From positions 29,899 through 93,898 of the forward strand of contig JAHBYV010000014.1 of the NCBI GenBank assembly GCA_019635795.1: 64,000 bases of DNA. Reading direction: 5' to 3'. The notes under the pieces are model-generated. The model saw only the letters and a list, made by a program, of their open reading frames with translations. It was not told the DNA's origin and made no database searches. The translations under genes and the position numbers were made by a program. Origin of the DNA: Rhizobiaceae bacterium. GTDB lineage: Bacteria; Pseudomonadota; Alphaproteobacteria; Rhizobiales; Rhizobiaceae. This document shows positions 42,272 to 62,700 of this stretch, in pieces; within the stretch, counting starts at the first letter, position 1, and each line of letters opens with the position of its first letter.

Positions 42272-42412
42272 GGCTTGGAATCCTGTACGTAGCCACTCTG
42301 CGAGAGGCAAAATTCTGATTTTACTGATTTCTTACAGAGCGACTGTAACGCAGGGCCACCGCGTTGCGACCAAAAGGCGTGGTGGAGGTTGACGGAATTG
42401 AAATGCAGCAAC

Positions 42413-44620: not shown

Positions 44621-45496
44621 TTATCGGGATAAGGCAAAGCGTTCCAGTTTCCCCAGAGTCTGCAATCCAAGTTCAATCGCGCCAAAGCCTTTCGCTGTCT
44701 CAAGCTCTTCTCTGCTCGCCATGACCATTCCAAGAGTGACCCTCGTTTCTGCGCCTTGTTCCTCAAAAAACGCCCAGGCATCGGCATGTTTTGGCCCGTT
44801 CTCTCCCCAGAGCAGAGAATAGCCAATCCTCTCTTCAGGAAGAACCTCACGATAAAGGTGATGGTTAGGATAAATGACACCATCGGGGCCAATCATGTCG
44901 AATACCCATTCGCCGCCTTCGCGCAGATCAATCCTTTTGGTACGACATGAGAAGCCATCGGGCCCCCACCATTGCGGCAGTGCTTTTGGGTCCAGCCAGG
45001 CATTCCAGACTATCGTTCGGGGAGCCCTGATGACCCGTTCGATAACAAGGGTACGTTGCGCGACATCGGCAAGATTGGTAAGTCCAGCCTCGAAGCCTTC
45101 ACGGTAGCCGGACTCCATATCTCCAGGCAGCGACGATAGTTGAACGGTTACTTCTATCTGGCTGCGTTCATCCGTACCTGAAAAATCCGCAGTTACGAGT
45201 GCCACAGATTGCGTTTCTCCATGAGAGAAAATTACCTCGTAGTTCACACTGCGGCGAGCGGAATCCAGAACGAGCCAGCCACATTCGCAGCGGATATCCG
45301 GCTGGCCATCAACCTTGCAAAGGGTGATTTCGCGACCGCCGACCCGGGTTTCGGATTCAAGAAACTCAACGGTGACGGATGGATTGGGCGGTGCCCAAAC
45401 GGCTCGTGCAGCCGGAGCGGCCCATGCTTGCCAAAGCACAGACAACGGAGCACCCACGCCTCTTGCGAACTTCAAGGTCACGAAGCGCCCGCTCAT
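44621..45496 (-). CDS. Tandem SRPBCC/AHSA1-domain protein
   Basis: 291 residues made of two Bet v1-like AHSA1 domains, about 1-135 and 147-285. The second is canonical (VIRAPRTIVWNAWLDPKALPQWWGPDGFS). The first is degenerate (ARGVGAPLSVLWQAWAAPAARAVWAPP). These domains bind hydrophobic ligands in a helix-grip fold; the bacterial ligand is unknown. The ATG overlaps the stop of the next AHSA1 gene. It belongs to an ArsR-AHSA1-AHSA1 operon, a common arrangement in alphaproteobacteria. Confidence 0.88.
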   Translation of the reverse strand: MSGRFVTLKFARGVGAPLSVLWQAWAAPAARAVWAPPNPSVTVEFLESETRVGGREITLCKVDGQPDIRCECGWLVLDSARRSVNYEVIFSHGETQSVALVTADFSGTDERSQIEVTVQLSSLPGDMESGYREGFEAGLTNLADVAQRTLVIERVIRAPRTIVWNAWLDPKALPQWWGPDGFSCRTKRIDLREGGEWVFDMIGPDGVIYPNHHLYREVLPEERIGYSLLWGENGPKHADAWAFFEEQGAETRVTLGMVMASREELETAKGFGAIELGLQTLGKLERFALSR

Positions 45497-45969
45497 TTCA
45501 TCAGTCCCTTGGCGTAGGCTTCCAACTGCGTCGCCACAGTTCCCCAGCCATCGAAGAAGCCCATCTTTTCATGCGTGGCGCGGCTTTCAGGATTGCGGTG
45601 GCGAGCAATTGCCGTGTAGATCGTGCCACCGTCTGGTCCATCTGCAAGCAGAAGCATTGCAGTCATGAAGGGGTCTGGTGCGGGCTTCCAGCCTTCGGAA
45701 TATGCGTCCGTAAAGACAAGCTTTTCCTCTGGAACAACTTCCAGATAGACGCCTTGATTATCCATCACTTGTCCGTCCACTTCGAATGTGGAGTTGAAAC
45801 GCCCTCCCACTCGCAGATCGATATCCACCGCAGTTACCTTGTGCGGCGCTGGGATGAAAAAATGGCGTATGTGCTCAGGCCGCGTCCAGCATTCCCAAAC
45901 GAGGTGGCGGGGAACCGCCAGGGTGCGCGTAAAACTCAGGTCCGTATCGGAATCCAGATTAAGGTTCAT
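45493..45969 (-). CDS. SRPBCC/AHSA1-domain protein
   Basis: 158 residues, one AHSA1 domain throughout: LAVPRHLVWECWTRPEHIRHFF, then VDIDLRVGGRFNSTFEVDG and the C-terminal helix GFFDGWGTVATQLEAY. GGAG sits upstream of ATG. It overlaps the ArsR gene by 11 bases and the tandem AHSA1 gene by four, so all three are cotranslated. Ligand unknown. Confidence 0.9.
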   Translation of the reverse strand: MNLNLDSDTDLSFTRTLAVPRHLVWECWTRPEHIRHFFIPAPHKVTAVDIDLRVGGRFNSTFEVDGQVMDNQGVYLEVVPEEKLVFTDAYSEGWKPAPDPFMTAMLLLADGPDGGTIYTAIARHRNPESRATHEKMGFFDGWGTVATQLEAYAKGLMK

Positions 45970-46457: not shown

Positions 46458-48125
46458 TCAAGTATCGACTTGTTCGAGAATCATACGGGATGCGTGTTCG
46501 GCAACCATCATTGCGGGTATGCAGGTGTTTGCAGAAGGTATGCTCGGCATAATCGATGCGTCGACGACCGAGAGCCTATCCAGACCGCGCACCCGACATT
46601 GAGGATCAACAACAGCATTTTCATCAGACGCCGAGCCCATGGCGCAGGTGCCCGTGGGATGAAAAATCGGTGTTACATGGGAAAGCAATTCTTCCGCACT
46701 TGCCATATCGACATCGGCTGGAAGTTCCTGCCCTGCAAAGCGGAGCATACGATCAGGGATCGATCCTGGCGCGTCAAAGGCCATTGCCAGCAATGCAGAC
46801 ACGACGCGGTTCATTGCTCCCGGACGGTTAAGACGTCGAACCATACTTGAAGGGCGCACAGTCGCAACGCCGCCTCGAAGTGAGCTAACTTCCGGCTCGT
46901 TGAGCAATTTCAGTGTCAGGAATATCCCCGATGCAAGTCGTGCCTTGTCGGAAGGGTCGGATAGAATATTGAAATCTATTCTGGGGTGCGCCGCTATATC
47001 AGAAGGGTCAAGCGATAAGCGACCCTTGGATGCCGGCGAATAAAGGCTCGTCCCAACAATCCCAAGTCTATCGCCATGCGCATGGGGACTGGTCCGCGTA
47101 ATCAACTGTATCAGAATATCCCCATTCGGAGCGTCCCTCATTCCAGAACTGACGCGAGCACCCGCAAGTGCATAAGTGTTGAGATCTTTTGACTGTCGCG
47201 CATGTCTTACGATTGGTGTAGCGAGATTCAGTACACAATGGTTTTGCAGATTGCGCCCCACGGGCAGATCGACAACTGGTTCGATGCCTAGCGCCGCAAG
47301 CTCATCAGCCGGTCCGATGCCTGAACGCAGCAACAGGGCGGGGCTGAACACAGCGCCTGAACTAAGTATGATCCGCCGGGCCGAGACGACGGTGGTTGAC
47401 CGACTGCTGTCGCGAATTTCGACGCCCGTTGCCCGCCGTCCTTCCATGATGACGCGCGTAGCCGTCGCACCTGTCATAATCTTCAGGTTCGGGCGCCCAC
47501 GCACCGCTACGCCCAGATACCCCTCGGGAGCGGACACACGCTCGCCGTGAGCAGTGGTCACGGGAATTGGAAACACCCCATCGGCAAAATCTGTGTTTAT
47601 GTCCTGGCGGTACGGCAAACCATACCGTTCGGCAGCAGCAGCGAAAGCGCGGGTAAATCCGGGCCATTGCTCCCGGAAGTGCCGGCGTATCGGAATAGGT
47701 CCTTGTTGCCCATGCCCGTGTCCCCCGAAATCGGCATCGGATTCCAGACGCTTGAAAGCCGGAAGAACATCGTCCCATCCCCACCCGACGGCACCCATGC
47801 GCCGCCAGCCATCATAATCCTCCGCTCGACCGCGCAGCGCCCACATGCCCATGACACTGGAGCCACCGCCCATTATTCGGGCCTGTGCAAAGGATGCAGG
47901 CTCGCTACCGGCCAATCCGATTGCGGCGAGGTTCGGCCAGAAATAGGATGGATTGGAGTATGCGACCGGGTAAGCGTCGCGTATGTCGGAGGGAACGTTG
48001 CCCGGAACAGTATCCTGTCCCGCTTCAATGAGCACGATTTTCAAGGCTGGATTCTCGCTCAGGCGCGAGGCAAGGACACATCCCGCCGCACCAGCCCCGA
48101 CGATAATTACGTCAGCATACTCCAT
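46458..48125 (-). CDS. GMC-family FAD oxidoreductase, alcohol/choline-dehydrogenase-like
   Basis: 555 residues from the ATG at 48125, with GGGGGAGG about ten bases upstream. FAD motif GAGAAG is near residue 9, the second signature MGGGSSVMGMWALRG near 86. The catalytic His is in FHPTGTCAMGS and Asn in IPSANTCIPAMMV near the end. It is a distant paralogue of the 4.9-kb GMC enzyme. It is the last gene of the catabolic operon that starts near 57 kb, 110 bases after the BKACE gene. It probably oxidises an alcohol intermediate. Confidence 0.92.
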   Translation of the reverse strand: MEYADVIIVGAGAAGCVLASRLSENPALKIVLIEAGQDTVPGNVPSDIRDAYPVAYSNPSYFWPNLAAIGLAGSEPASFAQARIMGGGSSVMGMWALRGRAEDYDGWRRMGAVGWGWDDVLPAFKRLESDADFGGHGHGQQGPIPIRRHFREQWPGFTRAFAAAAERYGLPYRQDINTDFADGVFPIPVTTAHGERVSAPEGYLGVAVRGRPNLKIMTGATATRVIMEGRRATGVEIRDSSRSTTVVSARRIILSSGAVFSPALLLRSGIGPADELAALGIEPVVDLPVGRNLQNHCVLNLATPIVRHARQSKDLNTYALAGARVSSGMRDAPNGDILIQLITRTSPHAHGDRLGIVGTSLYSPASKGRLSLDPSDIAAHPRIDFNILSDPSDKARLASGIFLTLKLLNEPEVSSLRGGVATVRPSSMVRRLNRPGAMNRVVSALLAMAFDAPGSIPDRMLRFAGQELPADVDMASAEELLSHVTPIFHPTGTCAMGSASDENAVVDPQCRVRGLDRLSVVDASIMPSIPSANTCIPAMMVAEHASRMILEQVDT

Positions 48126-48235
48126 GCCCTGCAAGAACCTCCCCCGGTAGTTTATGATGCGCGGCGGATAATCCCGCCGCGCAACCACGACTATAAAGGT
48201 TGCAGACGCCCCTTGAGGCCGCGAACCAATGAGCT

Positions 48236-49126
48236 TTACACAGGCTTGCGACGCTCGATTCCGAGAACGGCGCGCGCTTCATCCGGCGATGCGATGTCAC
48301 GCCCGATATCACGTGCAATGCGTACGATTTTCTCGACAAGTTCAGCATTGCTCCGGGCATATTCACCGGGGCTGATGAAGGGATTGTCTTCCATCCCGAT
48401 CCGGACATGACCGCCGAGGCTGATCGCCGTTGCCAGCACCTTCCATTGCTCGACCGGGTCCATTACACTCGTATTCCAGACAAAACCTTCCGGACAATGA
48501 TCTGCCATATAGGTCATGGCCTGCACGGTTGGAGGCGTCCAGCAGCCACCCTTCCAGCCAAGGAAGAACGTCACCCAGATTGGACCCTTCAAAAGGCCCA
48601 TTTCACGCATACGCATCGCATTCCAGACGCCACCATAGTGGAATGCTTCCACTTCGATCTTGACGCCAAGTTTGTTGGTGATCTCGCAATATTCTCTCAG
48701 CTCTTCACGATCGTGGATCGCGTAAAGCTCAACAGGTGTACGACCGGGTTCATAATCGAAACACTCATCATGCGCGTTGAAGCAAGTGGAAATCATGTCC
48801 GGGCGCTGATCTTCCATCAGCAATTTGCGCTGGGGGAAACGACCATTGGCAATACCATACTGGATAACTGCATCGACATTGTCAGTGATGCCATCGCGAA
48901 GGCGACGCCAGCCGGGAATGTCCAGATCAGAAAGCTTTGTGCCGTCTTCCTGAATTTTTTCGTCCACTGTGTATGGCCCATGCAAATGGCAAATCGCAGC
49001 GCCTGCATTCACTGCGCGCACATATTCCTGCGCCACCGCATCCACACCCAATGGTGTCGGGTTGTTTGGGTTGGACGGATACGACATCGTCGAGTCGCAC
49101 GTTACAGTGACAATGAGCTTGTCCAT
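48236..49126 (-). CDS. BKACE-family beta-keto acid cleavage enzyme (DUF849)
   Basis: 297 residues from ATG 49126 (GAAGGA upstream). TIM-barrel family whose founding member Kce condenses a beta-keto acid with acetyl-CoA and releases a CoA ester plus acetoacetate. Zinc ligands are CHLHGP near residue 40 and His/Glu in GGHVRIGMEDN near 245; TCDSTMSYPSNPNNP is the substrate-side N-terminal loop. This tells the reaction type, not the substrate. Its presence suggests the pathway yields a 3-keto acid. Lies 17 bases downstream of the CocE gene. Confidence 0.9.
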   Translation of the reverse strand: MDKLIVTVTCDSTMSYPSNPNNPTPLGVDAVAQEYVRAVNAGAAICHLHGPYTVDEKIQEDGTKLSDLDIPGWRRLRDGITDNVDAVIQYGIANGRFPQRKLLMEDQRPDMISTCFNAHDECFDYEPGRTPVELYAIHDREELREYCEITNKLGVKIEVEAFHYGGVWNAMRMREMGLLKGPIWVTFFLGWKGGCWTPPTVQAMTYMADHCPEGFVWNTSVMDPVEQWKVLATAISLGGHVRIGMEDNPFISPGEYARSNAELVEKIVRIARDIGRDIASPDEARAVLGIERRKPV

Positions 49127-49143
49127 TTCAATTCCTTCTGACG

Positions 49144-50883
49144 CTATTGTTTGGTTGTTGTGGTTTCGGATTTGGCCGGCCCAAGCAAAGACAGTCTCAG
49201 TCGCGAGCACCGTTCTGCGTCGTGAAAGACCGCTTGGGTCGCGATGCGCACTTTGTTCGGATTGCGCGACGTGATCGTCGCACCCGTATTGTCGTTGACG
49301 TCGTATGCAGGGAAATTTGAACTCGACACCTCAAGCCGGATTGCGTGTCCACGCAAGAACCGGTTTGCCGTTGCGCCGAGGTCGATCCGATACTCGTAAA
49401 TTTGCCCCGGTTCTATGTTCGACGGTGGCTCGGCAGGATTTCTGAATCTGGCGCGGATGATGCCGTCGCAAATGTTGATTGCCTTGCCGTCTGGATGAAC
49501 ATCAACCAGTTTCGCGGTCCAGTCAGTGTCAGGCGCGTCAGTAGCAGCGAATATGACCAGCTCGACCGGTCCGACAACATCTACATCCTTATCCAGAACG
49601 GGTGAGGTATAGACAAGAACGTCATTCCTGATTTCAACATGCCGCTGATCGAAGGCCCCCACAGGCGCAACGTCCGCGCGACAGCAGGAGGCACCTCCAA
49701 CGCTCGGCACCGGTTCGGAAGGATCGTAAACATAAAGGTCTGGCGGTTCCGACACCGGGGCAATCTCCGACAGAGTCCCGGTTCCTGAAAGTGAGTTCGC
49801 GCGCCCGTCTGACCGCAGGAAATATTCCGTTGTGCGCGCTCCCTCGGGCGGCCATTGCTCACAGCGCCGCCATTCATTCGCCCCCATCAGAAAATAGCTT
49901 ACGGGCGACTGGGCTTCAGTCTGAGATTTGCCCTTCAGATGCTTGTCAAACCAACTCAGCTGCAGGCTGTCAGCATTGTTATTGCCAGATGAGCCGTATG
50001 AAACAGAGCCATTGAGGCTTGCCCAGGGCACGTGCTGCCAGGGACCGACAACTAACCGTTGCTCAGGACTTCTCCCACGCGTGAGGGAGTGTGCGCTCGC
50101 GCTATATGCAGCCAATGTCCCGGACAGAAAAATGTCGTACCAGCCTCCGATATAAAGATTCGGCACAGGCTTGCCCGATGGCATGGGTCGGCTCAAGCGT
50201 TCCCAGTATTCCCCGGCCCCCTCCTGCCTGACCCAATCCTCAAAAAATGCAGGTAACTCACCTGAATCTATCCACGACCCAAGGGGGCGGCGATAGGCGT
50301 CATTCAAATTCGCGCCAAGCTCGCGCAGTCGCTCCATCAGCCTGTCCTGACCCGAACGTATGGCCTGCGGCGGAGCAAGCGCCTGAATAGTCCATGACAA
50401 TATAAAGGCCAGTTGAAGAGCGCCGCCCCTATAGGTCCAGCCATCGTTGAAACTGGTACCGGCCATCCCGATTGCAGTGGCGGCGAGGTTCGAAGGCGAA
50501 CAGGCGGCAGCAAGGATCTGGCATGCACCGGCATAAGAGAACCCGTAGGTTCCAACCTTGCCGGATGAACCGGGAAGCGACGCGGCCCAACCTATGCTGT
50601 CATATCCATCTTCTGCCTCGTGCAGGTATGGAACGAAGTCACCGTCGGAAGCGAAACGACCCCGCACATCCTGAACTGCAACAATATAGCCCTGTCGAGC
50701 ATACCACGCCGGATGCTGATAGACGGCGGATTGGGCGAAGCGTTTGTTGTAGGGCGTCCGCTGGAGAAGTACGGGAAATGCGCCTTCAGACTCCGGGCGA
50801 TAAATATCAGCCCGAAGCACAACCCCGTCCCTCATTGCAGCCGGTGCATCATGGATTACATGCACACCCCTATAGTCAGCCAC
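49144..50883 (-). CDS. CocE/NonD-family hydrolase (S15 fold)
   Basis: 579 residues. Alpha/beta hydrolase with Ser116 in GFSYAG as nucleophile, RADIYRP at the start, and the Asp/His of the triad further on (near GGWYDIF and GPWQHVPW). The C-terminal beta-sandwich X-Pro/CocE domain starts about residue 340. Known members hydrolyse esters (cocaine), X-Pro peptides or glutaryl amides. GTG start with GGAGG five bases before. No signal peptide, so cytoplasmic. In this operon it may open an ester or amide of the imported compound. Confidence 0.92.
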   Translation of the reverse strand: MADYRGVHVIHDAPAAMRDGVVLRADIYRPESEGAFPVLLQRTPYNKRFAQSAVYQHPAWYARQGYIVAVQDVRGRFASDGDFVPYLHEAEDGYDSIGWAASLPGSSGKVGTYGFSYAGACQILAAACSPSNLAATAIGMAGTSFNDGWTYRGGALQLAFILSWTIQALAPPQAIRSGQDRLMERLRELGANLNDAYRRPLGSWIDSGELPAFFEDWVRQEGAGEYWERLSRPMPSGKPVPNLYIGGWYDIFLSGTLAAYSASAHSLTRGRSPEQRLVVGPWQHVPWASLNGSVSYGSSGNNNADSLQLSWFDKHLKGKSQTEAQSPVSYFLMGANEWRRCEQWPPEGARTTEYFLRSDGRANSLSGTGTLSEIAPVSEPPDLYVYDPSEPVPSVGGASCCRADVAPVGAFDQRHVEIRNDVLVYTSPVLDKDVDVVGPVELVIFAATDAPDTDWTAKLVDVHPDGKAINICDGIIRARFRNPAEPPSNIEPGQIYEYRIDLGATANRFLRGHAIRLEVSSSNFPAYDVNDNTGATITSRNPNKVRIATQAVFHDAERCSRLRLSLLGPAKSETTTTKQ

Positions 50884-50916
50884 GACGACCTCCGCCCATC
50901 GATCGTTCCATCTCGA

Positions 50917-52716
50917 TCAGTTTGCAGCCAGAACCACAGGAACCGTCTCGCCCTTCCACACGTCAACCAATCCGCGTGAATTGATCTTCAGGCGGCCTAT
51001 GGAGATAGGGAGGCCGCTAAAAGCGAGGGTGTGGAAAGGTGTCTCAAGCGGGCACCCAAGTTCCCGAAGCGCGGAGAACGCCGCTTCAATTTGCTGACCG
51101 AGTGTATCGATAGATGCTTCTGACAACAGCCCGTAAAGAGGAAGCGGGACTTGCGCCACAACCTTGCCGTCATCCACGACAACGAAACCGCCACCCTGCT
51201 TCTCGCATTCCTTGGCGGCCACGAGCATGCTGTCCGCATCTGCTCCAACGACAAGAAGATGCTGGTAGTGCGGGTTATATGTAGACGCCATGGCGCCACG
51301 CTTAAGGTTGAAGCCTTCAACGAAGCCAGTGCCTATGCGACCTGATCCGTCATGCCGGTCAATGGCGGCAATCATATTGATTTGCTGTTCGACAAGAGGC
51401 TGTACGCTGCCCTCTTTGACCGGCAATCGCCTTTCAAGCGACCGCGTCACAATCGTACCGTCACCAACACCGATCACGCGGGCAAGAACGTGTTCCGCAC
51501 CGGCGGGTGCGGGAACCACGAAACTCTCGCGCGACACACTTCCAATGTTTACCGTATTGTAGACAAAGTCCGGGCGCTGAACCTTGGCCCGTTCCTTGAG
51601 ATTGGCACCATTGCGCGCCACTACCTCACCGGCGGCAAGAACCTCCGCGATATTGAAGTTCGCCAGTTCACCCTCAAGCAGTAGTATGTCTGCACGACGT
51701 CCCGGAGCCAGCACGCCAACGTCATGATCGATCTGGTGGCACTCGGCCGAGTTGATCGTTGCCATCTGAATGGCGGTAACTGGCGGGACTCCGAGTCCGA
51801 TCGCGAGCCTTACGCAGTAATCGATGCTGCCGCGTGCCAGCAAATCAACAGGAGACAGGATATCGGTGCAGAACGATACGCGCCGCAGGTCAGCGCCTTT
51901 TTCCAGAAGATAGCTCAGTATATTTGCAACATCCGTCACACCCGAACCTTCGCGGGCGATTACGTGAATACCCGACCGAATGCGCGACAACGCCTCCTCG
52001 CCAGATATTGCCTCGTGATCGTCAAGCCTGCGCACCCAGCCCGCCCATGCCTGAACTTCGTTCTCGGATGCTTCCGAGCCATGACCACAGACTTTGCCGC
52101 CAGATTCCTGCACAGCATCGACAAGCTTGACCATTCGCGATTCGCCCTGAGTCAAAAACTTCACGAAGCATTCGTTCAGCCCGTGGCAATTTTCCCAAGA
52201 TGCAAGGCTCTCCATCACCGCAAGATCAATCGTGCCTGTGTGTACGAACGGCTCGTCCTGATAAAGCGCTGGCATCGGCAGGATGAAGACCGTGTTCAAG
52301 CCGGTATCACGAGCCTCTTCAAGCGAGGCTTTGATAGCATCGATACCCCTGACGACAGCTTCACCGTAGAAGTCGGTTACGATCGTGGTGACGCCATGGC
52401 GGAAAAAGCCACGCGCAACTTCGCTGATCGGCAAATGGCTCTCATAGGTGTGAATGTGACCGTCTATGAGCCCCGGGACTGCCGTTTTGCCTCCCCCATC
52501 GATCACGGTAGTGTTTGGGCCTATGAGGTCTGACACTTCGCCGACACACGCAATTCGATGGCCAACGATTGCAATGCCGCCTTCGAAAAGCAGCCCTGAA
52601 TGGACATCAAGTATATTGACGTTTTGCAGAACCGTATCAGCCGGTTCGCGATGAAGGGTGACACGCAAACGGCGTTCCCGGTTTATCCGCTCATTCTCGC
52701 TCAGTTTCTTAACCAA
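50917..52716 (-). CDS. Adenine-deaminase-family amidohydrolase
   Basis: About 600 residues from a TTG at 52716, chosen because AGGAG lies eight bases upstream; the frame is open to 52791. Metal-dependent amidohydrolase: GLIDGHIHTYESH holds the HxH pair, followed by GHGSEASENEV and SFCTDILSP. The adenine deaminase C-terminal domain is present (GGGFVVVDDGKVVAQVPLPL). The two Asp residues of bona fide AdeC (SDD-type) appear here as CTD, so a substrate other than adenine is plausible. Encoded between the importer ATPase and the CocE hydrolase. Deamination or ring opening of the imported compound is the likely role. Confidence 0.85.
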   Translation of the reverse strand: MVKKLSENERINRERRLRVTLHREPADTVLQNVNILDVHSGLLFEGGIAIVGHRIACVGEVSDLIGPNTTVIDGGGKTAVPGLIDGHIHTYESHLPISEVARGFFRHGVTTIVTDFYGEAVVRGIDAIKASLEEARDTGLNTVFILPMPALYQDEPFVHTGTIDLAVMESLASWENCHGLNECFVKFLTQGESRMVKLVDAVQESGGKVCGHGSEASENEVQAWAGWVRRLDDHEAISGEEALSRIRSGIHVIAREGSGVTDVANILSYLLEKGADLRRVSFCTDILSPVDLLARGSIDYCVRLAIGLGVPPVTAIQMATINSAECHQIDHDVGVLAPGRRADILLLEGELANFNIAEVLAAGEVVARNGANLKERAKVQRPDFVYNTVNIGSVSRESFVVPAPAGAEHVLARVIGVGDGTIVTRSLERRLPVKEGSVQPLVEQQINMIAAIDRHDGSGRIGTGFVEGFNLKRGAMASTYNPHYQHLLVVGADADSMLVAAKECEKQGGGFVVVDDGKVVAQVPLPLYGLLSEASIDTLGQQIEAAFSALRELGCPLETPFHTLAFSGLPISIGRLKINSRGLVDVWKGETVPVVLAAN

Positions 52717-52787
52717 GACTTTGTCTCCTGATAGAGTTCCGCCACTCTGGAACTGGACCCCGGAACTTCCTCCCGAGGCATACAAGC

Positions 52788-53900
52788 TCAAGCTTTTGGC
52801 GCGTGGCGGGCACCTGCCAACCGCGCACCTGATTTTCCGTCAAACAAGTGGACCTGGATGGGCAAGAGGTGAGCCTGCGATGACACATCATCTCCCCTCG
52901 ATAGCCTGACCCGAATATCTGCCGAGATTTGCGAGCCCCGATATTGAGGCGCCAGACTGGCAACGACGAATTTCTCAGCGCCGCGATTCTCAACGAGCGA
53001 AACAGCCAACGGGATGCCATCGCCTGAAACAACGGCATCTTCGGCACGGAAAGCCAGGATCACGTCGGTCTTTTCATTAATAGACTGACCGTCTTCCTGA
53101 GTGAGCTTCAGCTTCAGTTCGGTAGAGCCGCCAAGCGTGAAATAAAGCCCATCCGTGCCCTGTTCCAAGGTCCCGCGGACTTCATTGATTTTGGGTGAGC
53201 CGACGAACCGCGCACAGAAAAGGGTGGCAGGTCGATCATATATTTCGGCAGGTGAACCAATCTGCTCAATTCTGCCGTTGCTCATCACCGCGAGGCGATC
53301 TGCCATCACCATCGCCTCAACCTGGTCGTGCGTCACATACACGGTGGTCACGCCAAGTCGTTTCTGAAGCTCCCGAAGCTCGACACGGACATGCTCCCGG
53401 ATCTGGGCATCCAGATTGGACAGAGGCTCGTCCATGAGGAGCACTTCTGCATCACGCGTAATCGCACGCGCAACAGCAACGCGCTGGCGCTGCCCCCCAC
53501 TCAATTCTGCTGGCTTGCGATCCAGATAGGGCGCAATCTCCAGCATCTCGGCAACTTCTTTCACGCGCTGTTCTATGAGCGCGGAGCCTAGTTTGCGGAT
53601 TTTCATATTGTAGGCGATGTTGTTGCGAACGCTCAGATGGGGATAGAGCGCATAGTCCTGAAAGACCATTCCAACGTTTCGGTCTGCTGGATCAAGGTCG
53701 TTCACGGGCCTCGTTCCAAACAATATCTGACCGGAATCGATGGTCTCCAGTCCAGCAATAGAGCGCAACAGAGTGGTTTTCCCGGAGCCGGAAGGTCCTA
53801 ACAAAACCAGAAGCTCACCATCATCTGCAACCAGCGATATATCGGCCAGTGCCTGATGGCTGCCATAGCGCTTTTGAGCGTTATTAATATCAATCTTCAC
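52788..53900 (-). CDS. ABC importer ATPase, UgpC/MalK type (second importer)
   Basis: 370 residues from the GTG at 53900 (AGGGAA just upstream); the longer frame overlaps the permease gene. Walker A GPSGSGKTT at 35-43, signature LSGGQ at 133-137, Walker B LLMDEP at 154-159, VTHDQ near 190, and a TOBE-like C-terminal domain after about 235. It pairs with the two permeases at 53.9-55.6 kb. The gap to the amidohydrolase start is about 70 bases. Confidence 0.94.
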   Translation of the reverse strand: MKIDINNAQKRYGSHQALADISLVADDGELLVLLGPSGSGKTTLLRSIAGLETIDSGQILFGTRPVNDLDPADRNVGMVFQDYALYPHLSVRNNIAYNMKIRKLGSALIEQRVKEVAEMLEIAPYLDRKPAELSGGQRQRVAVARAITRDAEVLLMDEPLSNLDAQIREHVRVELRELQKRLGVTTVYVTHDQVEAMVMADRLAVMSNGRIEQIGSPAEIYDRPATLFCARFVGSPKINEVRGTLEQGTDGLYFTLGGSTELKLKLTQEDGQSINEKTDVILAFRAEDAVVSGDGIPLAVSLVENRGAEKFVVASLAPQYRGSQISADIRVRLSRGDDVSSQAHLLPIQVHLFDGKSGARLAGARHAPKA

Positions 53901-53911
53901 GCCAATATTCC

Positions 53912-54736
53912 CTATCGAACTGCCCCGAGCGTCAGCCCTCGAACGAGAGAACGCTGCAGAAAATACGTGACTGCGAGTAGCGGGATGAGCAGCATCAGCG
54001 CTGCGGCAGCCATCGGCCCCCACTCAATCGAGTGCTCAGTAAGGAACTGAGACATACCAATGGGCACTGTTTTGGTGCGCCCTCCCGTCAGGATGAGCGC
54101 CAGGGTGAACTCATTCCACACTTCCAGAAAACAGAATGTGCCTGCCACCGCGATTGCAGGCTTCATGAGCGGCAACATCATATCGCGGAACACCTGCCAC
54201 CTGTTGGCACCATCGATACGCGCGGCCTCGTCAATCGACTTCGGCATTTCAAGCGCAAAGCCGTAAAGAAGCCAGACCGCCAGCGGCAGTGTCAGCGGCA
54301 GGTACGCGATTATCATGCCGATATGCGTGTCAATCAGCCCCACCCGGGAGTAAACTATGTAATATGGGATGACGATTACTATCGGCGGAAGCATGCGCAG
54401 ATTGAGGATCCAGATCAGGATCGGATTGCGCAGCCTGAACCGGAATCGCGTCAGGCCGTAGACCAGCAGCGTGGCAAAGACCAGTGTAAGCGCGGTGGAG
54501 CCAGCTGCTATGATGAAACTGTTCAGGGCGTTCCAAAGAATCCCAAACCTGTTTATGGCAAGCGAAAAATTCTCCAGCGTCGGCGTGAAGATAAATGATG
54601 GTTCGGCGACATAAAGCTGTGCTTGGGTTTTCAGCGCGACATTGAGCAGCCAGTAGACAGGCAACAGCCACGTCAGCACCACAAGTACGGCAAAAGCGAC
54701 TTTAAGCCGACGGTGTCGGGTTAGTGGCCCCTTCAT
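53912..54736 (-). CDS. ABC importer permease, MalG type (second importer)
   Basis: 274 residues, six membrane helices. EAA loop IDEAARIDGANRWQVFRDM near residue 180. N-terminal basic stretch then the first helix at about 10-30. ATG overlaps the upstream permease stop by four bases; 11 bases separate it from the ATPase start. Channel subunit of the catabolic locus importer. Confidence 0.94.
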   Translation of the reverse strand: MKGPLTRHRRLKVAFAVLVVLTWLLPVYWLLNVALKTQAQLYVAEPSFIFTPTLENFSLAINRFGILWNALNSFIIAAGSTALTLVFATLLVYGLTRFRFRLRNPILIWILNLRMLPPIVIVIPYYIVYSRVGLIDTHIGMIIAYLPLTLPLAVWLLYGFALEMPKSIDEAARIDGANRWQVFRDMMLPLMKPAIAVAGTFCFLEVWNEFTLALILTGGRTKTVPIGMSQFLTEHSIEWGPMAAAALMLLIPLLAVTYFLQRSLVRGLTLGAVR

Positions 54737-55644
54737 CGACTATTCTCCCGAAACACGAGGCGCAACAGAATAAGCGCAATGATAGAAATGATGTTCATCA
54801 GGATGAACGCCGCAGCGCTGGCTTTCCCCATCAGGAGCTGTGAGAAGCCGACTTCCCAAGGATAAAACCCGGCGAGCATCGTAGCCCGCCCGGGACCACC
54901 GCGTGTCATGACGTAGACGAGGCCAAATGTCTTGAAGACGTCGATGAATCGCAGCAGGAAAATGATTGCCACCACATTCCAGATCATCGGCAGTTCAATG
55001 GTCAAAAGGCGTCTCACCCTGCCTGCGCCATCCAGCCGGGCGGCAGCAACCACATTGGGCGGAAGACCTTGCAGTGCTGAGAGAAAAACGATCGCGACGA
55101 AAGGCGTCCACTGCCAGATTTCAGCGATACCGATCGAAGGAAGTGCAAGAGCGCTGCTTGACAGCCATCCGACAGGCTCGATCCCGAATAGGCCGATTAT
55201 GTAGTTCACAACGCCGATCGACGGTTGATACATGAGGCTCCAGAGAAGACCCACCATAATCGGAACCATCAACATCGGCGTCAGGAATGCAGTCCTCAAC
55301 ATTCTGCTTCCTGGAAAGTCGCGGTTCAGAGCAACAGCGATGGCAAGGCCCAGAGCCAACTGGATCGCGACAACGACCACCGTATAGATGAAAGTGCGCA
55401 GAAGGGCTTCCGTGAAAAGCGTATCGGTCAGAACCGACACGTACATACGCAGCCCCACGAACCGCTTTACGCCAGACAGCAAACTCCAGTGATGCAAGCT
55501 GTTGTAAATCAGCTGTATCGTTGGAAGGATAATCACAATGCCAAGCACAATCATTGGCACCGCGACGTAAAAGAACGGCTTGTTCAACAAGCTTTGCCTT
55601 TGAAGCGCTCCGGAAGCACGTGCGTCCAACATGTTTTCTGCCAT
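54733..55644 (-). CDS. ABC importer permease, MalF type (second importer)
   Basis: 303 residues from the ATG at 55644; the longer frame adds a non-conserved start. First membrane helix at about 25-45. EAA loop NVVAAARLDGAGRVRRLLTIEL near 210, where Ala replaces the usual Glu but the Gly is kept. The gap to the binding-protein gene is about 145 bases. Forms the transmembrane pore with the MalG-type partner. Confidence 0.94.
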   Translation of the reverse strand: MAENMLDARASGALQRQSLLNKPFFYVAVPMIVLGIVIILPTIQLIYNSLHHWSLLSGVKRFVGLRMYVSVLTDTLFTEALLRTFIYTVVVVAIQLALGLAIAVALNRDFPGSRMLRTAFLTPMLMVPIMVGLLWSLMYQPSIGVVNYIIGLFGIEPVGWLSSSALALPSIGIAEIWQWTPFVAIVFLSALQGLPPNVVAAARLDGAGRVRRLLTIELPMIWNVVAIIFLLRFIDVFKTFGLVYVMTRGGPGRATMLAGFYPWEVGFSQLLMGKASAAAFILMNIISIIALILLRLVFRENSR

Positions 55645-55790
55645 CGGCGGAGCCTCTATTCGCGCAAACTCGAGTCGGTGATAAGCAGCAGAAGCACGTT
55701 CGGGAATGCCTGCCCAAGCGCGCAAACTGCTTTGTCGAAAGCGGTTGTCGGCCCATACTTATGGGCCGACAATTGGTAGTTGAAGTGCGA

Positions 55791-57110
55791 TCAGAGGTAC
55801 CCTGCCTCGCGCAATTGGGTCGCGAAGGCATCGTTGGCATTCTTCAGACCCTGCTCGGGCGAAACGCCACCAGCAAGAATATCGGACACATGATTACCCA
55901 GCTCTACCAGGAACTGATAAGATTCCGGTATTGCAGGGAACGGATGGCCCTGTCCCAAAGCTTTCTGAAGGGTTGGGAAGTAACGTCCGACCTTCACATT
56001 CTCCGGGTCAGTCAACGCACTTGAACGAGCCGGCTGGCCTTGATTGGCAACGAATGTGCGCATCACTTCCGAGCTGGTTGCATACGCAATCCATTTCGCT
56101 GAGGCTTCCTTATTATCTGCCCAGCTCGCAACCATATATGCCTGACCGCCGAGGCACGGAGCCGCCGGGTGGTCACCGCCATCAGGCGGTAGTGCAGTTT
56201 CGATGTTCGCAGCAGTCGCAATCTTGCTGGCGTCCGTAAGATCGGAACGTCCCCAGACCAATGGTGCCCATGCAGCTACGCCGGTTGCGATAGCCTGCGC
56301 ACTGTCATCCTCACCGGCATTCACTGTACCTGGATCTGCGTAAGCCATCAGCGCGCGCATGACTTCAATGGCTTTGCGTCCTGCTTCGCTATCGATCGTT
56401 GGATTGAAATCGGCATCCCAGTATTCACCACCGTATGAGAAGAGCATACTGGAGAAATGAGCGCCCGCATATTCACCGCGACGAAGGCTGGCCGTGTAGC
56501 CATAAACGCCGTTCTTGGTGAGCGCCTTGGCAACTGCTTCCGCATCTTCCCACTTCTTGGGCAGCGAGACACCAGCTGCATCGAACAGGTCTTTGCGATA
56601 GAAGCTCCACTGTGCGTTCGAGTCGTTCGGCACTGCATACAGCCGGCCCTTATAGCGCCATGTGTCGAGGTATTTGGCTGGGATGTCAGCTTCCAGATTG
56701 GCAATCTGCTCAGGCGTCAGAACTTCATCCATGGGAAGGATTTTACCGGTCGCCGCAAACGCATACAGGAGATTGGTAATTCCCGTGAACACCTGAAGGT
56801 TGCTCGCATTGGAAGCAACTTCAGTAGACAATTTCGGGAAATAGTTCTGAACCGGCACAGTCTCAAGCGAAACCTGAATGTCAGGATTTGCCGCGTTGAA
56901 ATCTTTTATCAGAACAGCGTTCGGAGTACCGAAACGCGCACCTGCGGAGGTTTGAAATTTTACGGAAGTTGCTGCGTTAGCGGCAGCCGGAAAACCAACC
57001 ATTCCGCCAACTCCGGCACCGATACCGAGCATCGCGCTGCTCTGCAAAAATGTACGACGAGAAAGTGCGCTCTTAATCACGTTAGATGTTTTTTTGTAGT
57101 CGCTTGTCAT
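55791..57110 (-). CDS. Extracellular solute-binding protein, Tat-exported (second importer)
   Basis: 439 residues, family 1 sugar-binding fold. The twin-arginine signal is S-RR-TFLQ at 17-23, then a hydrophobic stretch and cleavage after ANA at about 46. Mature part shows PDIQVSLETVPVQNYF, YAVPNDSNAQWSFYRKDLFDAAG and WADNKEASAKW, common in CUT1 binding proteins. Tat export is unusual among its relatives, most of which use Sec, and indicates folding before export. First structural gene after the regulator on this strand; good GAGGG ribosome site. Ligand unknown. Confidence 0.92.
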   Translation of the reverse strand: MTSDYKKTSNVIKSALSRRTFLQSSAMLGIGAGVGGMVGFPAAANAATSVKFQTSAGARFGTPNAVLIKDFNAANPDIQVSLETVPVQNYFPKLSTEVASNASNLQVFTGITNLLYAFAATGKILPMDEVLTPEQIANLEADIPAKYLDTWRYKGRLYAVPNDSNAQWSFYRKDLFDAAGVSLPKKWEDAEAVAKALTKNGVYGYTASLRRGEYAGAHFSSMLFSYGGEYWDADFNPTIDSEAGRKAIEVMRALMAYADPGTVNAGEDDSAQAIATGVAAWAPLVWGRSDLTDASKIATAANIETALPPDGGDHPAAPCLGGQAYMVASWADNKEASAKWIAYATSSEVMRTFVANQGQPARSSALTDPENVKVGRYFPTLQKALGQGHPFPAIPESYQFLVELGNHVSDILAGGVSPEQGLKNANDAFATQLREAGYL

Positions 57111-57160
57111 TTTTGGTCCCTCTGGATTTGCAGTTAGTTCACTCCTGGATTTTCAGCCAA

Positions 57161-57958
57161 TTACTGGCCGAAATCTTTTATTTTATGTGAGATTATCTCA
57201 GCGGTATAAATAAGCTCATCGATATGTTTCTTTATCGACTCGAACTTGTCGCTGGAACTACTGATGCCTATTGCAGCTATTGCGCGACCGTTACTGAATA
57301 TCGGTGCCGCAATACAGCTTGAATTGATCATGTGCTCTTCAATGTCTGTTGCGAACCGCCTTTGACGCGTCGCGTCAAGCTCCTCCCGAAAACGCGTCAT
57401 TGATGTGATCGAGTTCGGAGTTTGCGCATGCAGCGGCGCAGCATTCACAATCTGCAACATTTCGTCTTCTGGAAGGTGAGACAGAATTGCCTTGCCCAAG
57501 GAACAGCAGTGGACCGGCGCAGTCTTTCCGAAACGTGTGTAGATGGTGGGCAGCGACGGCTTCTCAACACCTGCTAGATACAAGACCTGATTGCGGTGGA
57601 TTATGCCAAGATTGGTGCGCTCGCCGGTCAACTTCGACAGATCTTGCAAATGAGGCAAAGATTCTAGGCGTAGGCGATTACTATCGAGAATACTGGCCGC
57701 AATCTGGAGGGTCGAATATCCTACGGTCAAACGGCCAGATTCCGGGTTCTGTACCAGGTACCCTTCATCCACCAAAGTACCGATGATCCTATAGGCCGTA
57801 GGTCGGCTGATACCCACAGCAAGTGCGACTTCAGAAGGGCTGACGGGACGCAAAGAGCTTCCGACAGCTTCAAGTAGTGCCAAGGCTTTGCGAAGGCTCT
57901 TCACACCACCTTTATCTGAATCCCGGTCTTCATCGTTGGCCGCAATGTTTTCGTTCAT
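57161..57958 (-). CDS. IclR-family transcriptional regulator
   Basis: 265 residues. Winged HTH at about 20-75 (VSPSEVALAVGISRPTAYRIIGTLVDEGYL). Ligand-binding IclR domain about 90-260, with the conserved HCCSLGKAILSHL and AIGISSSSDKF. It lies 50 bases upstream of the binding-protein gene on the same strand and is divergent from the FAH-family gene. A TGTCC-N7-GGACA palindrome immediately upstream is its likely operator. Confidence 0.93.
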   Translation of the reverse strand: MNENIAANDEDRDSDKGGVKSLRKALALLEAVGSSLRPVSPSEVALAVGISRPTAYRIIGTLVDEGYLVQNPESGRLTVGYSTLQIAASILDSNRLRLESLPHLQDLSKLTGERTNLGIIHRNQVLYLAGVEKPSLPTIYTRFGKTAPVHCCSLGKAILSHLPEDEMLQIVNAAPLHAQTPNSITSMTRFREELDATRQRRFATDIEEHMINSSCIAAPIFSNGRAIAAIGISSSSDKFESIKKHIDELIYTAEIISHKIKDFGQ

Positions 57959-57971
57959 ATTTTGAGTTCCG

Positions 57972-57988
57972 TGTCCACTATGCGGACA
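57972..57988. promoter_or_regulatory. Palindromic IclR-type operator
   Basis: TGTCC-ACTATGC-GGACA, with an additional symmetric C and G inside (TCCxCxxxGxGGA), 14 bases upstream of the iclR-type ATG and 138 bases before the FAH-family gene. It fits IclR-family sites in size and symmetry. Autoregulation plus control of the divergent gene is inferred. Confidence 0.6.
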
Positions 57989-58125
57989 ATTTTTCGCATC
58001 ATGATCTTGACGTCATTTTTTGTCAATGGCATTTAATATCTCGAGTTCAACTAAAGTTCACGCTCCAGCCAAACCTGTCGCCATTAGGCGAAAGCGTGCT
58101 GGCGCCTTTGAAACAGGACCGTTCA

Positions 58126-58971
58126 ATGAAATTGCTGAGATATGGCCCAGATGGGCTTGAGAAGCCCGGCGTGCTGGATAAGGACGGCCATATAAGGGAT
58201 CTTTCGGGGATCATCTCTGACATTGACGGCGCTTGCCTAAACGCAGACCAGCTCAAAAAACTATCTGACACCGAACTGTCTACGCTTCCTCTCGTAGACG
58301 ATAAAACGCGTATCGGGCCGTGTATTGCCAAAGTGGGCAAGTTGATTTGCATCGGCCTGAACTACTCGGACCATGCTGCCGAAACAGGTGCGGCGGTACC
58401 AACTGAACCGATCGTTTTCATGAAAGCGACTTCAGCGATTTCCGGCCCTTATGACAACCTGGTAATACCTCGCAATTCGACAAAAACAGATTGGGAGGTC
58501 GAACTTGGCGTCGTTATCGGGACGAAAGCAAAATATGTCACCGAAGATGAAGCAATGAGCCACGTAGCTGGCTACTGCGTTGTAAATGACGTCTCAGAAA
58601 GAGAATTCCAGATTGAACGGCAAGGTCAGTGGACAAAAGGAAAGTCCGCCGACACTTTCGCGCCCATCGGTCCATGGCTTGTGACGAAGGATGAGGTGAG
58701 CGACCCTCAGAACTTGAGTTTATGGCTGAAGCTCAACGGCCAGACCATGCAAGACGGCTCAACACGAACAATGGTATTCGGAGTTGCGCACGTCGTGTCT
58801 TATCTCAGCCAGTTTATGTCGCTCCACCCCGGAGACATTATCTGCACCGGCACCCCGCCGGGAGTTGGTCTGGGCATGAAGCCTCCAAGATTCCTCAAAC
58901 AGGGCGATATTGTCGAACTTGGCATTGAAGGTTTGGGCACGCAAAAGCAGAATGTGGATAAGGACCTTTAG
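58126..58971 (+). CDS. Fumarylacetoacetate-hydrolase-family enzyme (ureidoglycolate lyase-like)
   Basis: 281 residues from the ATG at 58126 (AGGA upstream); the longer frame overlaps the IclR gene. N-terminal MKLLRYGPDGLEKPGVLD, then LICIGLNYSDHAAETG, metal ligands in TDWEVELGVVIG, and GKSADTFAPIGPWLVT near 185. GTPPGVGLGMKPPRFL closes the active site. Close family members include ureidoglycolate lyase and 2,4-diketo-3-deoxy-sugar-acid hydrolases. Divergent from the IclR regulator, so part of the same regulon. It likely cleaves a beta-diketone or ureido acid. Confidence 0.9.
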   Translation: MKLLRYGPDGLEKPGVLDKDGHIRDLSGIISDIDGACLNADQLKKLSDTELSTLPLVDDKTRIGPCIAKVGKLICIGLNYSDHAAETGAAVPTEPIVFMKATSAISGPYDNLVIPRNSTKTDWEVELGVVIGTKAKYVTEDEAMSHVAGYCVVNDVSEREFQIERQGQWTKGKSADTFAPIGPWLVTKDEVSDPQNLSLWLKLNGQTMQDGSTRTMVFGVAHVVSYLSQFMSLHPGDIICTGTPPGVGLGMKPPRFLKQGDIVELGIEGLGTQKQNVDKDL

Positions 58972-59702: not shown

Positions 59703-62700
59703 CTAGAAATGGAGCACATTCGCCTTGCCGCCGCTGATCGACGTGCCAAGACCAAAGGTGCTGGCTTCCGACCTGTTCTCAAGATCGCGCACCACCAGAC
59801 GCCCGGCTTCCAGCGAATTCAACGCCGGATCGGCACTCGACACAATCAGCCCGGCGGTCATATCCACCGTGCCGCCCGCCCTGACGTCAAACCCGCCTTT
59901 GCCCGCAACAATGCCGGACTGCTCGCTGACATTGGCATAGTCGGCCTTCGTGCTGCTGTAGCTGCCGCTGACCGCGCCGTTATAGGAGATGCTCAGCCCA
60001 ATGCCGGTCTGCTTGAAGGTCGATGTGTCCTGCAGGCTGGTAATCGTCAGATCACGACCGACATCAACCACCACCCGCTCGCCCGCCGCCGTACCTCCGA
60101 TCAGGCTGATGTCGCGGCCCGCCGTCAAGGTCAGCTCGCCGCCAGCCTCCACATTGCCATTGCTCACAAGTGTGGTGTTGCCGCCAGCCTTGCTGATGCT
60201 GCCCGATACCGCCTGCTGGCTGACCGTCAGGCCAAGCGCGGAAGACTGCTGACGCGCATAGTCGAGCAGGGCAGATATCTGAATGTCGCGCTCGGCCTCC
60301 ACCGTCACATTGCCAGCTGCGATGAGCCGGGTGCCCTGCGTCAGCAGCGCATCAACACCGGCGCGCATGACGATATCGCCGCCCGCCGTCAGCTGCGCCG
60401 CCTGGCTCTCGCTCCAGCGCTGGTCGGTGCGCCAGCCCGACAGGCTGAGGCCGATCTGCGCCTCCAGCGCTTCAGGGGTCAGGCCGGATGCCTGCCCGGC
60501 CAGTGAAGGGTCGCCCGCCAGAAGCCGCCTGATGCCCTCAAGCCCGCCAACCCCGACATAAGTTGCCGCAAGACCGGCAGCGAGACCATTCTCAGACGAA
60601 CCAAGCCGGGCAAGCGTGGCCGTCAGCGGGTTGATCGAGGCAAGCCCGGAAAGCACCTCGCCGCTATCCCCACCACCCAACGCTGCATCAATGGCTGCCG
60701 AGCCGGGGAAAGTGAGGCCAATATAGAAGCCCTTCTCGGTGAAGTAGAGCGCATCCTGCGAGGCAGCCAGTTGGATTGTCGCGTCCGACTGCATGATGAG
60801 ATCGTTGATGGCAGCGATCTTCGCGCCGGTGCCGGTGATCGGTCCGCTCGCGTCAAGCGTAACGTTGCTGCCCGAAAGCTGCGTCACGCTGGTCCCGATG
60901 TCGTTCCACGCCTGCTTCGTCGTGCCCCAGCCAAGGCCGGCAAAGCCCCAGTCACTGTATTGGTTGTTCACCTCTCGCGACACAACACCCATGTCGATCT
61001 CGCCGCTCGCCGTGACCGCAAGATCGCCGAAGGCCGAAACCAGCGCGCCGTTCAGAACGGTATCGCCAGACCCTGACCCCTTCGAACACAACGCCCCGCC
61101 ATCGCACACGCCATAGCCAGAGAAGATCGACACATCGCCAAGCAGCGATTGTGCAGCCGCGTTGGCCGACACCATGCTGTATTCGACAATATCAGTGCCC
61201 GACAGGAACCCGCGCTGGTGGTAGTCTGCTGTGAGGAACGCATCCTTGAGCGTTTCGAACTCGACATTGCGGCCCGCCGCCAGCAGCATGTCAGTGACCG
61301 AGCCAAGCTCGCCGCCGCGATTGATGATGTCCTGATCCGCTATGATCGTGAGGTCGCCACCGGCGGTTATGCGCGCAATTGCATAGTCAACTGCATTGCC
61401 GCCGCAGGCCGAGCCCATGCAGCCGTCAACGGCATCCACTGCCCGCGTGTAGCGCTGCGTGAGATTGAGCACAGAGCCGCCAATGCGAAGCTCAATGTCC
61501 CCAGATGAGGCAAGCGTGCCGCCGCGATTGACCAAATCTCCATCAGTCGTCAGCAACAATGTGCCTGCGGAAATCAATCCGCTATCAGCGCGTCCGGCAG
61601 CATAGTCGCGGTCTATGTTGTCCAGATTCAGCAGGCGCTCATTGACAATCGATGAGGCCGAAATAGAGGCGAGGTCGGAGGCGGTGATGGCTCCGCTGTT
61701 GGTCAGGCGGTTCGACAGGTTGATGGTCAACTCATCAGCGCTGATCAGGCCCGCCCCGCGCGAGCCGCGTAGTAACTCGTCGCTGGATGGGGAATAGAGG
61801 CGCGGCACCAGAACCGACGTGCCGTCGACGATACGGGTTTCATACCATACGATCGGCTCGTCCAGCGCGGCGCGCTGCGCTTCCGTCAATGCAACACCAA
61901 ACTGTGCGCCAGTGCGAGCAGCAAAGGCTGCTGCATTGGCATAAAGCTGCTCGCGCTGATCTTCAGGCGATAGCGTTGCATCAAGCTTCATCTGCGAGGC
62001 GCTCAGCAAACGTAGCGCATCGGATAGTGCCTTCGCTTCCTGCACCGGGTCTGCATAGAATGCCAGCGTCGAACCGCTTATGCTGCCGACACTGGAAAGA
62101 AGTCGCGCGGCTTCCATCGAGCCTGTGTAGCGTACCAGATTGCCAAAGTTATTCAGATTGATGCTGTACACATTGCGGCTGCTGAACGCGCCAAGATTGA
62201 GCGGCGGCACAGCAACGTCGTCCAGAACGAACTGTACAGAATTTGCTGCATAAGGCGATAGTCCGACGCTCGAAGATGCGCGGACGGAGGCGTTGGTGTG
62301 CGCCACTCCATTGACGGCGACCGCAGAGCCGCTGCTTTCCGCAGCCGCGGTATGTGAAATCTTCAACTGTTCGATAGATGAACCAGCATCGGCATTGGAG
62401 ACACCGATGCCGGTTGGGTTGATTGCCGAAACGTTAGAGCCCTGCGAAACCGCTGCTGCGCCAGCGCGAGTGGGATTGGGCGCAGTTATACTGGATGCGT
62501 TTATTTCTGTATTCCGGGTTTTAACAGCACCTAAACGACCCAGACCAGCGCTGGACACTCCGCTAACTGTGCCAATGCCATTAGCAAGCGTGCCGCCTTC
62601 GATTGAAACAGTGCTGCCAGACAAGGTTCCGCGATTGGTGATCACATCCGAATCGATGGAAAGCCTTTCGCCTGCCTTGATTACAGAGCCTTGCAAAACC

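Follow-up and report, generated by a model that had tools for sequence, protein, structure and literature searches.

A putative IclR-controlled nine-gene catabolic operon with an unusual enzyme set in a Rhizobiaceae bacterium

Results

Gene content of the locus

The window analysed here is a stretch of 64,000 nucleotides from the genome of a Rhizobiaceae bacterium (assembly GCA_019635795.1; genome G000, contig C6), and the locus in question, at positions 46458-58971, carries genes for an IclR-type regulator, an ATP-binding cassette (ABC) importer of the CUT1 type and several catabolic enzymes (Table 1). A preliminary description of the sequence had named ten gene families here, and all ten were borne out at this place by Pfam and NCBIfam. 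It had also described the ten genes as consecutive with short gaps. Nine of them lie on the minus strand between 46458 and 57958 in the order iclR, binding protein, permease, permease, ATPase, amidohydrolase, CocE, DUF849/BKACE and GMC, and the spacing between neighbours, given the starts chosen, ranges from -4 to 146 bases, whereas the tenth, encoding a FAH-family hydrolase, is on the opposite strand.

Table 1. Genes and predicted sites of the locus, in coordinates of the window
Feature	Position	Strand	Basis
IclR-type regulator, first gene of unit	57161..57958	-	PF01614 + PF09339
Extracellular binding protein, CUT1 type, with signal SRRTFLQ resembling a twin-arginine translocation (Tat) signal (by eye)	55791..57110	-	PF01547
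MalF/UgpA-like permease	54733..55644 (longest open reading frame to 55725)	-	PF00528
MalG/UgpE-like permease	53912..54736	-	PF00528
UgpC/MalK-like ATPase	52788..53900 (longest open reading frame to 54023)	-	PF00005; NF008653 406.6 bits, cut-off 432
Divergent amidohydrolase, adenine-deaminase fold	50917..52716 (longest open reading frame to 52791)	-	PF01979 + PF13382
CocE/NonD serine hydrolase	49144..50883	-	TIGR00976 438.1 bits, cut-off 66.3
DUF849/BKACE protein, distinct clade	48236..49126 (longest open reading frame to 49210)	-	PF05853 180.6 bits, cut-off 24.8
GMC flavin oxidoreductase	46458..48125 (longest open reading frame to 48188)	-	PF00732 + PF05199
FAH-family hydrolase, divergent neighbour, doubtful member	58126..58971 (likely start 58126)	+	PF01557
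Palindrome TGTCC-N7-GGACA, proposed IclR operator	57972..57988		Only match in window
Sigma-70-like promoter TTGACA-17-CATGAT, just upstream of palindrome	57998..58026	-	Consensus scan, 10/12 matches

The unit recurs in a second genome of the genus

Two other genomes of the same genus, G298 and G297, were available for comparison. All nine minus-strand genes are repeated in G298 (locus L037) in identical order and orientation. By tblastn the identity to the window is 80% for the binding protein, 80 and 82% for the permeases, 68% for the ATPase, 79% for the amidohydrolase, 58% for CocE, 60% for GMC and 86% for BKACE (90% for the trimmed BKACE protein); the IclR proteins are 60-63% identical. The flanks of the G298 unit are unlike the window contig, the sole weak match being an ABC ATPase-like frame at 34% (rough open reading frame calls in L053, L037 and L054, compared with contig C6 of G000 only). 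As the nine-gene order is repeated between other flanks, it can be seen as a functional block bounded by iclR and GMC. The GC content of the operon is 55.1% in the window and 63.8% in L037, each tracking its own genome, i.e., about 9 points apart within one genus even though the proteins are 58-90% identical, and the unit has therefore been kept intact through much divergence. We conclude that nine of the ten genes are one unit, which is probably under the joint control of one regulator. The preliminary description had singled out the amidohydrolase, CocE and BKACE genes as a trio expected to be conserved as neighbours, and the neighbourhood check that was run finds them kept together in G298, one other genome.

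The palindrome in front of iclR

A 17-bp palindrome lies before iclR, just downstream of the sigma-70-like sequence of Table 1. Its single occurrence in the window compares with an expectation of 0.02, and 2 of 100 shuffled sequences contained one; sigma-70-like sites in the region were not above chance (4 found, 8.3 expected). At the corresponding place before iclR, and likewise after a TTGACA, L037 of G298 carries TGTCCACAATACGGACA. In a third genome, G1504 (locus L081), TGTCCACAATGCGGACG is found before iclR, which differs from the palindrome in the last base of the arm. In both L037 (17291-17307) and L081 the palindrome runs into the beginning of the longest iclR frame; the true iclR start in these two loci is probably further downstream.

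A loose form of TGTCC-N7-GGACA was found in 4 places in G000, 4 in G298 and 1 in G297, against 5, 4 and 6 for its reversed control. The idea of a genome-wide regulon was rejected, as the loose form is no commoner than the control, and the palindrome thus marks one place. A narrower pattern, which is informative only for the scarcity of further sites because it was built from the three sites themselves, occurred once in G298, once in G1504, twice in G000 and in neither G297 nor G242, while its control occurred three times in G000 and was absent from the other four genomes. The additional site in G000 adjoins the 3' end of a gene resembling sucD, and we attribute it to chance or to part of a terminator. 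The palindrome before iclR is a putative operator of a dedicated IclR repressor, which would bind there.

The amidohydrolase is probably not an adenine deaminase

The AlphaFold model of the window amidohydrolase (predicted local distance difference test, pLDDT, 89.9) has as its best fold match 3nqb, the adenine deaminase 2 Atu4426 (template modelling score 0.87-0.89). The likeness to Atu4426 and to YerA extends over both domains and includes the six metal-ligand positions (HxH, Glu, His, His, Asp), described for YerA and mapped here by motif (PMC12133300), all of which are present in the window protein. Across an alignment of 41 rows, one being a second copy of the window protein, five of these ligands are invariant (41/41) and the CGH histidine is found in 38. 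In contrast, identity to Atu4426 in the fold alignment is 28%, and the substrate-side motifs HxHIES, DPHE, CTDD and HDxH of canonical adenine deaminases (Ade) are altered, HIHTYES standing for HxHIES, DFYG for DPHE, CTDI for CTDD and NPHYQH for HDSHH. The preliminary description had read the CTD of this protein as a replacement of the usual adenine deaminase motif. That is incorrect, as CTD is the family norm (CTDD in canonical enzymes): C and D occupy their columns in 41/41 rows and T in 40/41 (one row has CSD), canonical adenine deaminases included, and what differs is the following residue, Asp in 35/41 rows and Ile in the window protein.

Against the Ade model TIGR01178 (cut-off 472.5) the window protein scored 330.1, the G298 ortholog 315.0 and a relative in genome G963 314.8, while separate Ade genes of G000 (L035, contig C25) and G298 reached 599.3 and 581.4, both above the cut-off. 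In the tree the window amidohydrolase groups with proteins of G144 and G963 (support 100/94), apart from Ade. A wider grouping with a G092 protein (98/89) is less certain, as that branch is very long and the long-branch warning of the program applies. Taken together, the score, the motifs, the tree and the presence of a separate gene above the cut-off led us to reject adenine deaminase as the function.

In G144 the sister amidohydrolase (L038, G144:C275:1-20000) lies amid a sugar-type ABC importer, hydantoinase A and B genes, a luciferase-like monooxygenase, a histidinol-dehydrogenase family gene, a putative cyclase and a molybdenum hydroxylase. The hydantoinase A is nearest to caprolactamase alpha; for the hydantoinase B, acetophenone carboxylase delta ranks first and caprolactamase beta second, and none of these scores reaches the cut-off. 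L038 is perhaps another orphan catabolic cluster, and its gene content hints at N-heterocycle or lactam chemistry for this amidohydrolase subgroup.

CocE, GMC and the importer

The CocE protein belongs to the CocE/NonD family by score and keeps the Tyr, Ser, Asp and His positions that we take to be catalytic. It matches cocaine esterase over near its full length (351 bits, 38.5% identity over 543 columns). Of five residues that are presumably those of the cocaine-esterase pocket, W151, W166 and F261 are kept, while both L407 and F408 are replaced by Cys in the proteins of the window, G298 and Microvirga, so that the full pocket of cocaine esterase proper is not present. The family is widespread on plasmids, where 466 records matched CocE and 390 of these matches covered 80% or more of it.

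The GMC proteins of the window and G298 have both Pfam domains together with the HPxGT and ANT motifs, assumed here to hold the active-site His and Asn. Solved structures among the best matches include hydroxymethylfurfural (HMF) oxidase and pyridoxine 4-oxidase, and scores were below the cut-offs of the curated models for choline dehydrogenase (betA, 281.2 vs 732.1) and mycofactocin MftG (TIGR03970, 334.4 vs 387.45). The importer is of the CUT1 type by family, with an SBP_bac_1 binding protein, two BPD permeases and a MalK-like ATPase, and the nearest solved chains of the binding protein are mostly named sugar or sorbitol binding proteins.

The DUF849/BKACE protein

The window DUF849 protein forms a clade with those of G298, G1504, G242 and Sinorhizobium americanum. 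It exceeds the gathering score of PF05853, and all 10 aligned rows retain the zinc ligands (HxH and Glu), the E-x-(Y/F) Glu and RxGxED, likenesses to the BKACE family. E171 is the base of BKACE15 (PMC11961710), and the conserved Glu of E-x-(Y/F) would correspond to it, as mapped by motif only, BKACE15 being outside the alignment. A Tyr-to-Phe change as a sign of altered chemistry, an idea prompted by PMC12871164, was considered and rejected, since Phe is found in 10/10 rows, including a member beside pca genes.

Partial cores in other genomes

In G1504 (family f6) L081 carries on one strand genes for a short-chain dehydrogenase/reductase (SDR), a CUT1 ATPase, IclR, DUF849, a CUT1 binding protein and two permeases, together with an M24 creatinase/prolidase-like hydrolase, a Gfo/Idh/MocA dehydrogenase and a second SDR. 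Its IclR is 55% and its DUF849 protein 72% identical to those of the window and the palindrome is near-identical, whereas the M24, Gfo/Idh/MocA and SDR proteins replace the amidohydrolase, CocE and GMC; at a threshold of E 1e-5 the 13.5 kb stretch of G1504 gave no match to any of these three or to FAH. In G242 a DUF849 gene (61%) is directly beside an iclR gene (38-41%), and other matches in its 20-kb stretch were a weak binding protein (25%) and a permease (29%), more than 6 kb off. On a Sinorhizobium americanum plasmid typed as conjugative (L046), a DUF849-clade gene at 15043-15966 has beside it genes for IclR, FAH, an FAD oxidoreductase, ETF-like proteins and transhydrogenase subunits. Judged by gene content, IclR and DUF849 appear to be the most stable pair, followed by an importer of the same class, while hydrolase and oxidase vary. 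The core thus seems to be made up of the regulator, the DUF849 enzyme and the type of importer, whereas the front-end hydrolase and the oxidase seem exchangeable.

Distribution

Orthologs of the amidohydrolase were found in 2/3 genomes of the genus (G000 and G298), the third, G297, having one relative of 36% that groups with Ade. Within the family the same two genomes were the only ones of 394 with a match at E 1e-110 or better. Matches at E 1e-60 or better were present in 131/297 genomes of the order, those listed being 30-38% identical except that of G000 itself, and at E 1e-95 or better in 2/385 genomes of the class, i.e., G000 and one at 35%. For BKACE the counts were 2/347 genomes of the order (G000 and G242), 1/378 of the phylum (G000 itself) and 2/136 of the family of G242. 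Plasmid records matching BKACE numbered 550, the best two being from Sinorhizobium americanum at about 58% and the next among the matches listed at 34%. The order (297 and 347), class and phylum searches were samples of larger groups, in which absence is no proof, and these samples returned neither G298 nor, for BKACE, G1504. The amidohydrolase-CocE-BKACE trio is thus very rare, only G000 and G298 of the 394 family genomes having the amidohydrolase ortholog, and the conservation of all nine genes is supported by one other genome together with a partial core in G1504. A contig scan with six exact 8-residue patterns of the amidohydrolase gave one relative (25%), and says little about rarity because all six patterns differ from the G298 amidohydrolase; no relatives were found in a viral contig scan with query A1.

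The FAH gene

The preliminary description had included FAH in the pathway. The G298 unit is without it, and the closest match in that genome (75%, at C1:2740498) is about 0.94 Mb from the operon (about C1:3.68 Mb), for which reason FAH is a doubtful member. A further copy (71%) is on contig C30 of G000. The nearest solved chain is L-2,4-diketo-3-deoxyrhamnonate hydrolase, and the score against NF053535 (2,4-didehydro-3-deoxy-L-rhamnonate hydrolase) was 422.8 bits, below the cut-off of 500.

Discussion

The preliminary description is supported in reading the locus as a unit for import and catabolism whose set of enzymes is unusual, and its statement that it knew of no described pathway with this set also stood: no operon with this enzyme combination was found in the open literature searched. 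It is a genuine orphan operon of known enzyme kinds whose combination was not found described, and it includes a divergent amidohydrolase subfamily and a DUF849 clade. It is not a new kind of system, and its interest is mainly for pathway enzymologists.

On the basis of the genes, their order and its recurrence in G298, the shared palindrome and the catalytic positions, the following route can be proposed. IclR would sit on the palindrome and be released when the substrate or an intermediate binds to it. The binding protein, exported through Tat, and the CUT1 transporter would import a small polar, sugar-like or sugar-acid-like compound containing a ring or C-N bond as well as an ester or amide. 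The two-metal amidohydrolase would open the ring or split the C-N bond and the CocE-type serine hydrolase would cleave the ester or amide, the order of the two hydrolytic steps being left free. The GMC flavoenzyme would then turn an alcohol into a ketone or aldehyde. Finally, the DUF849 enzyme may, with acetyl-CoA, cleave a beta-keto acid to acyl-CoA and acetoacetate, or otherwise convert the keto acid. A single IclR-repressed nine-gene catabolic operon that imports and degrades a small polar compound by these steps is, on balance, the reading we favour, by a modest degree of confidence. It is supported by the intact catalytic positions of CocE, GMC, DUF849 and the amidohydrolase, and by the G1504 cluster, which has a similar logic with other enzymes.

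Several observations weigh against such a pathway. The full nine-gene set was seen in two congeners only, and CocE and GMC are the least conserved enzymes between them (58-60%), which could reflect substrate drift. No CoA ligase, thioesterase, CoA-transferase or thiolase, by which acyl-CoA and acetoacetate might be handled, is among the Pfam families of the unit. The transporter proteins of G1504 are only 23-43% identical to those of the window, so that its importer may transport a different compound or be an independent recruitment; TTGACA was not found in the aligned G1504 upstream stretch. In G242 and Sinorhizobium americanum the DUF849 gene is present without the other enzymes. The last step is also affected by features of the DUF849 protein itself. 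The [ST]T..GG loop, which presumably holds the substrate carboxylate in Kce, is found in 5/5 comparison rows (rows chosen by us) and in 0/5 distinct clade members, which have G(I/V)A(N/S/G)G in its place as well as insertions after HxH and around AHDECFD. Scores fall far below all four NCBIfam models matched (three equivalogs and one exception; best 141.6 vs 382 bits), and DUF849 includes groups that lack BKACE activity (PMC4922564, Table 7). As the protein keeps the catalytic residues but is without the loop, acetyl-CoA-dependent cleavage is only plausible.

It is conceivable, therefore, that the clade has an activity other than BKACE, a serious alternative although in our view the less probable one. 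The replaced loop and the extra insertions would be in line with it, as would the listing of DUF849 groups G6 (decarboxylation) and G7 as not BKACE (PMC4922564), the finding that BsfD of the DUF849 family makes a phosphonate diketone (PMC12871164) and the presence of cis-epoxysuccinate hydrolases among the solved-structure matches; that every row retains the zinc ligands, the E-x-(Y/F) Glu and RxGxED speaks for BKACE chemistry. That FAH takes part, in a last step splitting a 2,4-diketo acid, is unlikely. The gene is divergent from iclR with the palindrome inside the 167 intervening bases, and a different FAH gene (37% identical) adjoins the DUF849 gene in Sinorhizobium americanum, but FAH is missing from the G298 unit, unmatched in the G1504 stretch and present in a further copy on C30 of G000.

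Two readings would give the operon a familiar substrate. In a purine or nucleoside salvage operon the amidohydrolase would be an adenine-type deaminase, and the two-domain fold of 3nqb, the six metal-ligand positions and a conserved REGS arginine would fit. We hold this very improbable, as the TIGR01178 scores of the window and G298 proteins are below the cut-off, the four substrate-side motifs (the first as HIES) are altered, G000 owns a separate Ade gene, the tree, with its long-branch warning, places the protein elsewhere, and no purine genes are in the nine-gene unit. The breakdown of a tropane-type ester alkaloid has still less in its favour and can hardly be credited. CocE would split the ester, GMC would make a beta-keto acid from an ecgonine-like beta-hydroxy acid and DUF849 would act next. 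The chemistry of ecgonine fits on paper, and CocE does resemble cocaine esterase in its near full-length match and catalytic residues. On the other hand, identity is 38.5%, two of the five pocket positions are Cys, the CocE family is broad and a search of the open literature found no paper on such a pathway. Tropane-alkaloid and carnitine-like substrates were both considered, and no positive evidence was found for either.

For the favoured nine-gene operon the nearest described logic that we found would be deoxyribonate catabolism in Pseudomonas simiae and two Burkholderiaceae, where an alcohol dehydrogenase and a BKACE act in series on a beta-hydroxy acid (PMC6365646). In P. simiae the putative operon that contains both also encodes a lactonase and two transporters (PMC6365646). 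The system differs in having an SDR instead of GMC and a major facilitator superfamily (MFS) transporter instead of ABC import, and the main text of that paper contains the words 'amidohydrolase' and 'CocE' 0 times (PMC6365646).

It is tempting to speculate further that the five-member DUF849 clade constitutes a new functional class of the family, accompanied in three of the genomes by a dedicated IclR and operator, and that it marks a catabolic module for compounds without a known route, in which the front-end hydrolase (amidohydrolase and CocE, or M24) and the oxidase (GMC, or Gfo/Idh and SDR) have been swapped between lineages. We regard this as a tentative and rather doubtful extension. 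The locus nevertheless offers a bounded orphan pathway, whose nine genes include a single regulator with one predicted operator and for which the G1504 cluster, with its different enzymes, is a natural comparison. A ligand of the binding protein or an effector of IclR would point to the substrate. Such a ligand would also help to assign the divergent adenine-deaminase-fold subfamily and the DUF849 clade, for which no characterised member was found; relatives of the two carry the general annotations adenine deaminase and 3-keto-5-aminohexanoate cleavage protein, names not earned by score here.

Other features of the window and genome

No 16S rRNA gene was matched by RF00177 in G000, a genome rated 99.28% complete, and rRNA may be missing from, or masked in, this copy of the genome. 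By eye, a long open frame adjoining the operon (59703-63797) resembles a fragment of a filamentous-haemagglutinin-type adhesin, an adjacent gene pair at 44621-45969 resembles SRPBCC/AHSA1-type proteins, and two genes at 38562-42310 resemble a type I secretion ABC transporter and a TolC-like outer-membrane protein.

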